In this document: positions 48,869 to 54,978 of the stretch, one piece after another
Layout: each line of letters opens with the position of its first letter
How positions within the stretch are numbered: the first letter of the stretch is position 1
NCBI RefSeq assembly: GCF_002964975.1
Contig: NZ_PSZM01000001.1
Coordinates: 186,001 to 250,000, forward strand
Source of the DNA: Apibacter adventoris
GTDB taxonomy: Bacteria; Bacteroidota; Bacteroidia; Flavobacteriales; Weeksellaceae
Length of the DNA: 64,000 nucleotides
Direction of reading: 5' to 3'
Translations under genes and position numbers: made by a program
The notes under the pieces: generated by a model
The model's input: the letters and a program-made list of their open reading frames with translations, nothing else
Databases searched by the model: none
Told to the model about the DNA's origin: nothing

Positions 48869-48876
48869 TAAATTTG
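48869..48876 (+). promoter_or_regulatory. his: -7 promoter element TAAATTTG of the his operon
   Basis: TAnnTTTG match; predicted start of transcription near 48882, leaving a leader of about 175 bases before hisG that contains the attenuator. No -33 TTG found. Confidence 0.6.
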
Positions 48877-48899
48877 TATAAATAATTACAAGTATAAGA

Positions 48900-48953
48900 A
48901 TGATTCAATTTCACTTACATCATCATCATTTACAAACTTACACATTCAGGTAA
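48900..48953 (+). CDS. hisL: his operon leader peptide, 17 aa
   Basis: ATG 48900 to TAA 48951-48953 codes MIQFHLHHHHLQTYTFR: five His in 17 residues, four of them consecutive (48918-48929). Placed directly after the promoter and before a strong terminator, this is the classic attenuator leader in which lack of charged tRNA-His stalls the ribosome on the His run. Too short for normal gene finders. No homologue search was possible. Confidence 0.85.
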   Translation: MIQFHLHHHHLQTYTFR

Positions 48954-49022
48954 GGTAGATGATTTTGTATGTGATTTACAAAATAAAATTAAAAAACCGC
49001 CTGAGTCTTCTGGCGGTTTTTT
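48944..49022 (+). promoter_or_regulatory. his: Transcription attenuator of the his operon (antiterminator/terminator)
   Basis: Terminator: stem aaaaaaccgcc (48991-49001) with ggcggtttttt (49012-49022), T run at the end, before hisG. Competing pairing: attcagg (48944-48950, the last leader codons) with cctgagt (49000-49006), seven pairs with one G-U, which would break the left terminator arm. A third helix ttttgta/tacaaaa (48963-48969, 48977-48983) lies between. A ribosome stalled on His codons leaves 48944-48950 free (antiterminator), whereas one reaching the stop codon covers it (terminator). Confidence 0.8.
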
Positions 49023-49056
49023 AATTTATGATTACTTGGGGCACAAAAAAATAAAT

Positions 49057-49914
49057 ATGAGTAAACTGAAAATTGCTATTCAAAAAAGCGGACGATTGAG
49101 CGAAAAATCGTTAGAATTATTACAAGAGTGTGGAATAAAAATATCCAATGGAAATCAAAAATTAAAAACAGTTTCATCTAATTTCCCTATTGAAATCTTA
49201 TTTCTTCGAGATGATGATATTCCTCAATACGTTGAACAAAATGTTGCAGATATTGGAATCTTAGGCGAAAATGAAGTTTGGGAAAAGAATCGAAAAGTAG
49301 AAACTATAAGAAAAGTAGGGTTTGGAAATTGCCGTCTAGCATTAGCTATACCAAAAGATGAAATATATACCGGAATTTCTTATTTCAACAATAAAAAAAT
49401 AGCAACCAGTTACCCTAAAATATTAACTAAATTTTGCCAAGAAAATCATTTAAATGTAGAGATTGAAGAAATTAGTGGCAGCGTTGAAATTGCCCCGGGA
49501 ATAGGGCTGGCAAATTGTATATTTGATATTGTAAGCACTGGAAGCACCCTTTTAATGAACGGATTAAAAGAAGTAGAAACAGTAGCTAACAGCGAAGCGG
49601 TACTAATTAAATCACATAACCTTTCTGGAGAAAAACAAAAAATTCTTGATAAGTTGTTGTTCAGAATTCAATCGGTAATCTATTCTCATGAGAATAAATA
49701 TATATTATTAAATGCCCCTAATGAAAAAGTAAAAGATATTATTTCCCTTTTACCGGGAATGAAAAGCCCTACCGTTCTTCCTTTAGCGGAAAATGGATGG
49801 AGCAGTATTCATTCTGTTATTAAAGAAGATGAATTTTGGGACATTATAGATCTTTTGAAGGAAATGGGGGCTCAAGGTATTTTAGTCGTCCCAATAGAAA
49901 AAATGATTCTATAA
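49057..49914 (+). CDS. hisG: ATP phosphoribosyltransferase, long form, 285 aa
   Basis: First enzyme of histidine synthesis. The long-form HisG has two periplasmic-binding-protein-like lobes (IAIQKSGRLSEKSLELL at the start, GILGENEVWE, and EISGSVEIAPGIGLANCIFDIVSTGSTL with the PRPP loop) and a C-terminal regulatory ACT-like domain (about 215-285) that binds histidine, so feedback inhibition is expected and no HisZ is needed. ATG 49057 is preferred to the in-frame TTG at 49036, which would put the start close behind the terminator. Confidence 0.95.
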   Translation: MSKLKIAIQKSGRLSEKSLELLQECGIKISNGNQKLKTVSSNFPIEILFLRDDDIPQYVEQNVADIGILGENEVWEKNRKVETIRKVGFGNCRLALAIPKDEIYTGISYFNNKKIATSYPKILTKFCQENHLNVEIEEISGSVEIAPGIGLANCIFDIVSTGSTLLMNGLKEVETVANSEAVLIKSHNLSGEKQKILDKLLFRIQSVIYSHENKYILLNAPNEKVKDIISLLPGMKSPTVLPLAENGWSSIHSVIKEDEFWDIIDLLKEMGAQGILVVPIEKMIL

Positions 49915-54246: not shown

Positions 54247-54978
54247 ATGAAAAAAATTCTTTTCCTATTCTTACTAATTTCGACATCTGGATTTACACAA
54301 AACAATTTAAACGGCTTATGGAAAATTGATGAAATTATTGGTTTATATTCTACAGATGAATATAATTTATCTCCAGCAAAAGAGGATGAATCTTTACAAG
54401 GGTGGAGGTATGGAAACAGTGTAACCTTCAATCCTAACGGTACTTTTAATTCCAGATATTCTGCTTGGTGTGGTAATGATTGTTTTCCTCATTCCAAAGG
54501 AACTTTTGAAAAGATTGATGAAACACACCTCCGTTTAAAATTAGATGTATTGGAAATAACAGGGGATTGTCCATATTCAATAGATTCGACTCATCATGAT
54601 TTAGGAATATTTTTAATAAAAAAAACAGAAAAAGGATATAGACTGATTAAATCCGACTTTACAACATCCGACAAACAACAGGAGAAATATTCTGAAATGT
54701 TAACTGATTTATCTTTAATAAATATGGATAATTCTTTCTATAAAGAAGTAAGATTACCCCCTAATACTCGAGAGAAAAAAGATGTGGAAATTCTTGCAAC
54801 CGGATTAAAGAATATTTCGGGTTTTAAACCTGAAAAAGCAAAATTACTGTATACAAAATATCAATCTCACCAAAAACGATTTGTATTTGAATATAAAAAC
54901 AGGTTATTACTAGCTCTTTATAATCCCGGACCTTCCCAATTCATCTTATATGATATAAAGAAAAAGTCTGATTTATAA
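54247..54978 (+). CDS. Secreted lipocalin-like protein of unknown function inside the his operon, 243 aa
   Basis: Signal peptide MKKILFLFLLISTSGFTQ (1-18) and a mature beta-rich protein starting NNLNGLWKIDEIIG, which recalls lipocalin-like domains (G-x-W). Four Cys residues (in AWCGNDCFPH and GDCPYS) may form disulphides after export. Nothing connects it with histidine synthesis; it sits between hisH and hisA, 57 bases after hisH, where other Bacteroidota his operons continue directly with hisA. Same strand, so it would be transcribed with the operon. Confidence 0.75.
   Translation: MKKILFLFLLISTSGFTQNNLNGLWKIDEIIGLYSTDEYNLSPAKEDESLQGWRYGNSVTFNPNGTFNSRYSAWCGNDCFPHSKGTFEKIDETHLRLKLDVLEITGDCPYSIDSTHHDLGIFLIKKTEKGYRLIKSDFTTSDKQQEKYSEMLTDLSLINMDNSFYKEVRLPPNTREKKDVEILATGLKNISGFKPEKAKLLYTKYQSHQKRFVFEYKNRLLLALYNPGPSQFILYDIKKKSDL

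Follow-up and report, generated by a model that had tools for sequence, protein, structure and literature searches.

In the stretch of Apibacter adventoris DNA analyzed here (64,000 nucleotides, hereafter the window, from a genome of 2.75 Mb), the histidine biosynthesis operon is most likely governed by a ribosome-mediated transcription attenuator, to which many relatives may have added a second layer. The His-rich leader preceding hisG probably shuts off the his genes when histidine is abundant. In many Flavobacteriales, we find a six-segment arrangement in which one RNA strand (region 3, or r3) has three potential partners (r2, r4, and r5) and the terminator loop mimics the start of hisG. 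We lean slightly toward a reading in which a single stalling decision in such a leader would set both transcription and translation, with the six-segment arrangement decaying in Apibacter.

Leader, alternative stems, and operon in the window

The first gene of the operon, hisG, lies at positions 49057 to 49914 of the window on the forward strand, as do the leader elements described below; it begins with an ATG at 49057 and matches Pfam HisG and HisG_C. The gene order is hisG-D-C-B-H-(ORF)-A-F-IE, with a bifunctional hisB; hisF and hisIE were named by translation alone and the remaining his genes also by Pfam scan. The open reading frame between hisH and hisA (243 amino acids, window positions 54247 to 54978) has a signal-like start and no Pfam match. 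Upstream of hisG, a TAnnTTTG element (TAAATTTG, 48869 to 48876) is the likely leader promoter; the original prediction had noted a -7 element here, and we take it to be of the Bacteroidota -7 type. The leader ORF (MIQFHLHHHHLQTYTFR, 48900 to 48953) has 17 codons and encodes five His residues, four of them consecutive, exactly as the original prediction described it. Shuffling the 300 nt that precede hisG 2,000 times (by dinucleotide, or plainly where this failed) never produced four His in 7 residues.

The minimum-energy fold of the leader predicts a 1:2 stem whose 5' arm (region 1, 48925 to 48941) consists of the last His codons and the bases following them, and whose 3' arm (48950 to 48963) overlaps the end of region 2. 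The original prediction had seen no classic three-stem enteric layout in this leader, a point on which this fold departs from it, as the 1:2 stem makes use of the His codons. Region 2 (r2, ATTCAGGT, 48944 to 48951) is the antiterminator strand, assigned from its pairing with 48999 to 49006 and from covariation in relatives. The 7-bp pairing originally proposed, between ATTCAGG (48944 to 48950) and CCTGAGT (49000 to 49006), includes one G-U, and an extra G-U lengthens it to 48944 to 48951 with 48999 to 49006. It stood up to shuffling, as a 2:3 pairing this good arose in only 1 of 1,000 shuffles of the r3 side.

Region 3 (r3, GCCTGAGTCTTC, 48999 to 49010), which is supported by the fold and by covariation with r5 in relatives, comprises the terminator loop and the 5' arm and is the shared strand: it is used by both the 2:3 and the 3:4 pairing, in keeping with the earlier proposal that antiterminator and terminator have bases in common. 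The 3:4 pairing is an intrinsic terminator hairpin with a T run at about 48990 to 49023 (-17.6 kcal/mol, z -6.4), where the original prediction had noted a terminator just before hisG. A simple terminator scan of the window, which allows loops of at most 8, did not detect this hairpin, probably as a result of that loop limit. Because 1:2, 2:3, and 3:4 can all form, the window leader follows the enteric logic in a short form.

According to this logic, when His-tRNA is scarce, a ribosome would stall at the His run, the 1:2 stem would open, and the freed r2 would pair with r3, blocking the terminator and allowing transcription of hisG. When His-tRNA is abundant, the ribosome would reach the stop codon and cover r2, so that r3:r4 would form and transcription would end. 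That a ribosome at the stop codon covers r2 follows from usual footprint sizes; the stalling and the switching are what we infer from the leader's sequence.

Conservation of the leader in Bacteroidota

The His attenuator is widespread in Bacteroidota. The nearest relatives of the window's hisG include Apibacter, a genus of the Weeksellaceae. We gathered 261 hisG loci, 80 of which were named records (the top 80 among 482 relatives), the others coming from genome searches at the level of genus (9), family (197), order (148), class (119), and phylum (99), which are overlapping sets. Removal of 13 loci identical in their last 150 nt left 248 distinct hisG loci. A short His-rich ORF (at least 3 His in seven residues) was present in 215 of these, compared to 18 of 655 shuffled upstream regions, and a terminator preceded hisG in 203. 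Both features, a His-rich frame followed by a terminator, were found together in 196 of the 248, which bears out the search that the original prediction had proposed in relatives. Of 223 loci (identical copies included), 175 have the TAnnTTTG element at most 70 nt before the leader, where plain shuffles gave an expectation of 10.1. The part of the leader before the terminator folded with a z below -2 in 35 of 43 sampled relatives (50 plain shuffles each), and the bases that form 1:2 in relatives were taken from examples only.

The two strands of the antiterminator covary, with CAGGCG accompanying CGTCTG and CAAGCG accompanying CGTTTG (table 62,5/2,26; p 4e-16, with kinship ignored); 31 further loci had no r2 motif. 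At r2, the reading frame of the window leader is shifted by one base from that of locus L002, and r2 is nonetheless retained, which speaks for a constraint on the RNA. Loss of the His codons or of the 2:3 pairing among relatives, named at the outset as evidence that would count against the attenuator, did not occur. Leader-peptide attenuation by His is well supported as a prediction, with leader, terminator, antiterminator covariation, and promoter element conserved in many Bacteroidota. Four features of a ribosome-mediated transcription attenuator are found: a 1:2 stem containing the control codons (in the window's fold), a run of codons for the operon's own amino acid in the leader ORF, an intrinsic terminator between leader and hisG (in the window and in the 203 loci above), and a covarying antiterminator that excludes the terminator (at the p value just given, kinship ignored).

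The leader peptides of many relatives often end in HT[CG]xQA[SR]. Ala near the leader end is encoded by GCG in 115 of 166 codons and Cys by TGC in 90 of 118 (identical copies included), and the r2 pairing gives no explanation for the T-[CG] part.

Several sets of hisG loci are built differently. A second attenuator type occurs in class-level loci (L120 to L149; for example L131, L135, and L149), in which a GGCTTACC...GGTAAGCC-like terminator comes after the His leader; in many of these loci it is so near hisG that there is no space for an r5 (the strand described in the following section). In L018, L031, and L033, no terminator was found and the best short ORFs are without His; these three loci have in common a conserved stretch, TTACCC..GGGTGTTAT, shortly upstream of hisG. 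In L041, L055, and L069, the gap between terminator and hisG is 80 to 126 nt long, looks repetitive, and is without r5.

A strand between the terminator and hisG

The region between the terminator and hisG, unremarked in the original prediction, holds the unusual part of the leader in relatives. In loci of the CG[CT][CT]TGA type, this gap usually contains region 5 (r5; consensus TTTACTCAGAC), which is complementary to r3, the strand made up of the terminator loop and the upper part of its 5' arm (GTCTGAGTAAA). From the end of r5 to hisG the median distance is 17 nt (quartiles 15 and 18; 109 loci). A CG[CT][CT]TGA arm with at least 15 nt downstream was present in 141 of the 248 loci, which form the permutation set. 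The r5 motif anchor, which was built on the consensus and favors conserved loci, was passed by 129 of the 141; the window's own locus (L001) is among the 12 that fail it. A usable start was available for 128 loci, 120 entered the helix energies, and 109 entered the folding and opening tests, this last set requiring an r3:r5 score of at least 14 and favoring bearers of r5. Loci with other arms (for example L226 and L227) lie outside the r5 sets, though some of them pair well. A further set of 41 loci was hand-chosen from 95 for variety and a visible r5, and was aligned without a pairing anchor. Relatedness was partly controlled in the sister-pair and tree comparisons and ignored in the permutations.

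In an anchor-free duplex test of 198 loci of all types, 114 reached p≤0.01 (200 plain shuffles). Scored against its own partner, r3:r5 averaged 16.96, compared to 13.60 for permuted partners (sd 0.21, maximum 14.36; 2,000 permutations, 141 loci, kinship ignored). Among 64 non-overlapping sister pairs, the odds of co-change between r3:r5 partners were 5.85 (p 2e-10), with the pair intact after 20 of 33 double changes; in registers displaced by as many as four positions, the odds were 1.4 to 3.5 and 1 to 6 double changes left the pair intact. On a HisG tree of 128 loci, the pair was preserved in 28 of 33 co-changes (1 to 9 in slid registers). In the MAFFT alignment of the 41 loci, 95.7% of r3:r5 cells were paired (18.6 to 42.3% when slid), and 7 of 11 pairs had changes on both sides, a number equaled in 3 of 500 shuffles. 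The last five r3:r5 columns lie mostly in the terminator loop, where we know of no other partner for them, and all five have changes on both sides. For 3:4, the pair count in the same alignment was 50.8% as drawn, which is one column off, and 95.6% when slid by -1. Covariation gives strong support to the predicted r3:r5 pairing. The pairing also occurs in records labeled Chitinophagales, and in Seramator thermalis (Bacteroidales) 3:5 reaches 10 of 11 pairs while 5:6 is weak (5 of 8).

The same strand matches the start of hisG. Within r5, TTTACTCA is complementary to region 6 (r6, TGAGTAAA; 49058 to 49065 in the window), which consists of the last two bases of the ATG and the following two codons, and all 8 of 8 pairs form in 75 of 128 loci. 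Bacteroidota are mostly without Shine-Dalgarno signals. The r5:r6 score was 12.05, compared to 10.3 with permuted partners (sd 0.17; 128 loci, kinship ignored). Where the gene start differs, r5 often differs with it: hisG starting ATGAACAAA is accompanied by r5 TTTGTTCA in 6 of 8 loci, ATGAGTACA by TGTACTCA in 3 of 3, and ATGAATAAA by TTTATTCA in 2 of 2. The sister pairs contain 15 double changes, of which 6 preserved the pair (0 or 1 in slid registers), with odds of 7.45 compared to 5.2 and 4.3 in neighboring registers. In the 41-locus alignment, 93.8% of r5:r6 was paired (28.6 to 38.8% when slid); the covariation score was reached by 0 of 500 shuffles, and 56 of 500 had as many pairs with changes on both sides. 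On the HisG tree, the pair was preserved in 7 of 14 co-changes (0 to 5 in slid registers).

Because support on the tree is thin and the odds are closer to those of neighboring registers, r5:r6 is less secure than r3:r5. The stem on the start codon that characterizes a translational attenuator is conserved in relatives, with the weaker showing on the tree. Of the 128 loci, 89 are strong in both 3:5 and 5:6, 23 in 3:5 only, 6 in 5:6 only, and 10 in neither; isolates with both pairings include Flavobacterium rivuli, F. rakeshii, F. beibuense, Algoriella xinjiangensis, Faecalibacter rhinopitheci, and Planktosalinus lacus. The hisG gene starts with ATG AGT in 88 of 121 ATG-start loci with r5, compared to 11 of 70 others (kinship ignored, identical copies included). 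A copy of the hisG start within a terminator loop is an unusual constraint, and it might help explain why ATG AGT is so frequent in loci with r5.

In the window itself, r5 (TTACTTGGGGC, 49032 to 49042), identified by where the conserved r5 of relatives lies, is degenerate. Its pairing with r3 is at chance (155 of 1,000 shuffles equal it; p 0.04 in a longer stretch, 200 shuffles), as is 5:6 (224 of 1,000), so that in the window the start-codon stem of a translational attenuator does not rise above chance. Loci of the genus differ in this respect: r5 pairs strongly with r3 in L085 and is weak or missing in L003 and L005. The second layer is degenerate in this genome and may be lost. Since 3:5 and 5:6 are at chance and the r5 anchor failed, we read the window as a sound attenuator that retains, at best, a vestige of the second layer.

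For many relatives we favor, if only modestly, a second layer in which r5 would alternate between r3 and the hisG start codon. When the terminator locks r3, r5 would close on the hisG start and silence transcripts that leak through; when r3 has escaped through 2:3, r5 would take r3 from r2 and the hisG start would remain open. As r5 is made before r6, it could take r3 before r6 appears. Both this order of events and the effect on hisG translation are deduced from the arrangement of the segments.

Energies only partly fit such a switch. Median helix energies in 120 loci were -15.7 kcal/mol for 3:4, -9.7 for 3:5, -6.7 for 2:3, and -5.7 for 5:6, and 3:5 was more stable than 2:3 in 86 of the 120 and than 5:6 in 108. 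In only 35 of the 120 loci did 3:5 by itself outweigh the sum of 2:3 and 5:6, so under starvation the hisG start might finish up hidden, contrary to the model. We also considered equilibrium folding as proof of the switch and rejected it, as the terminator dominates nearly always: 3:5 exceeded 3:4 in only 9 to 10 of 109 loci, a result that counts against the second layer. With the place of the ribosome blocked, 2:3 and 3:4 shifted as expected in 107 of 109 loci, in tiny amounts, and forcing 3:5 cost a median of 5.9 kcal/mol.

The better conservation of r3:r5 than of r5:r6, together with the thin tree support for the latter, would also suit a transcription attenuator only, with an r5 that has no role in translation. 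Its pairing with r3 might prevent refolding of the read-through RNA, or protect or process the mRNA, and its complementarity to the start of hisG would be left over from a common ancestral sequence. We consider this account possible but unlikely: the distance from r5 to the hisG start is tight, r5 differs in step with the second and third codons of hisG in several groups, and no shuffle reached the r5:r6 covariation score.

The extent of the pairing raises a further thought, as in the examples it spans the terminator loop and the upper 5' arm, much as a loop-seeded contact would. A terminated leader RNA might act in trans, its loop (r3) pairing with r5 of read-through his mRNA, and trans-acting leader RNAs have already been published, as far as the available portions of those reports go. 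This is improbable, however, as opening r3 and r5 is costly (just 2 of 109 loci have an estimated total energy below 0) and as trans pairing of r5 would expose the hisG start rather than hide it, the opposite of what an RNA produced under histidine excess should do. More doubtful still, and in our judgment very improbable, is that r3, r5, and r6 form no RNA pairing and instead serve a DNA-binding regulator as half-sites (TGAGTAAA / TTTACTCA). One octamer is indeed found in three copies, inverted and direct, but r3:r5 reaches 11 bases, register-specific changes preserve pairs that include G-U, and the spacer separating r3 from r5 is constant neither in length nor in sequence.

The r5 that we propose to alternate between r3 and the gene start seems particular to hisG in the small sample of other operons covered. 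At trpE, pheA, and ilvD loci from the order, the filter retained 18 terminators, 14 of them with enough room for the r5 test; an r5 at p≤0.01 was found before 0 of these 14. Several of the 18 peptides, including this genome's, are probably not real leaders. Short ORFs before terminators, rich in Trp, Phe, Ile, or Leu, were seen in L263, L266, L272, and L275 (trpE), L308, L312, and L313 (pheA), and L319 and L323 (ilvD), and these likely represent leader attenuation of other amino acid operons in the order.

Relation to known leaders

In the enteric his attenuator, a leader peptide with a His run is followed by alternative 1:2, 2:3, and 3:4 stems and a terminator before hisG. The window differs in its Bacteroidota-type promoter, and relatives add the r5 and r6 pairings past the terminator, for which we know of no enteric counterpart. 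Amino acid leader attenuators in Bacteroidetes were reportedly predicted in a comparative study of 2004. The His-run leader, the three stems, and the terminator before hisG are common to the window and the enteric His_leader of Rfam (RF00514), to which the window scores 31.3 bits (E 0.0016), less than the 49 set as gathering score. The match to Thr_leader is nearly as close (29.2 bits, E 0.0008), which makes the resemblance to Rfam leaders a generic one.

The original prediction regarded a compact leader-peptide attenuator in an AT-rich flavobacterium as worth describing, and flavobacterial attenuation of this class is already in print. Clues of such attenuation before amino acid operons of F. 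psychrophilum have been reported, together with a conserved structured element before hisG that is also present in other genera and has no Rfam match (PMC9723704). That element comes from the same phylum and precedes the same gene, and the available portion of that paper describes neither its anatomy nor a start-codon pairing. With flavobacterial attenuation and a hisG element both published there, the core of our finding is known.

Other reports set the wider frame. One cites a comparative study of 2010 (PMC4833913), and another describes short ORFs reminiscent of leader peptides in B. thetaiotaomicron, its excerpt giving no his case (PMC7366714). According to the excerpt of PMC2965389, leader peptides were known only in Proteobacteria and Actinobacteria, to which that study adds one in bacilli. 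His attenuators occur in Firmicutes, and some attenuators are noted to hide the ribosome-binding site rather than terminate (PMC9413887), and an account of Bacteroidota his genes mentions attenuation, in its excerpted part, for enteric bacteria only (PMC8305728). No description of the r3:r5:r6 arrangement appeared among the matches listed in a literature search that covered a minority of subscription journals.

Two known systems come nearest to the proposed second layer. In the yxjB leader of B. subtilis, stalling on a leader peptide prevents both termination and hiding of the gene start (PMC6851288). Control by this leader is dual, as it would be in the his leader, but the signal for yxjB is tylosin rather than an amino acid; in the portion of the report available, yxjB is without an identified antiterminator overlapping the terminator, and what it hides is the Shine-Dalgarno sequence and first translated region. 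The LEU element of leuA in Actinobacteria (PMC1262725) resembles the his leader in its codons for the operon's own amino acid, its alternative structures, and a stem that reaches the gene's Shine-Dalgarno sequence; unlike the his leader, it involves a pseudoknot, has no terminator described in the available excerpt, and belongs to another phylum and gene. Taken together, these comparisons place the core of the leader as a His attenuator known in kind, which extends a textbook system to much of a phylum in which amino acid control is little described. The start-codon pairing of relatives is the part worth following, and would be a further variation on this kind if it works as proposed: a single leader would gate RNA polymerase and the ribosome through one shared strand.
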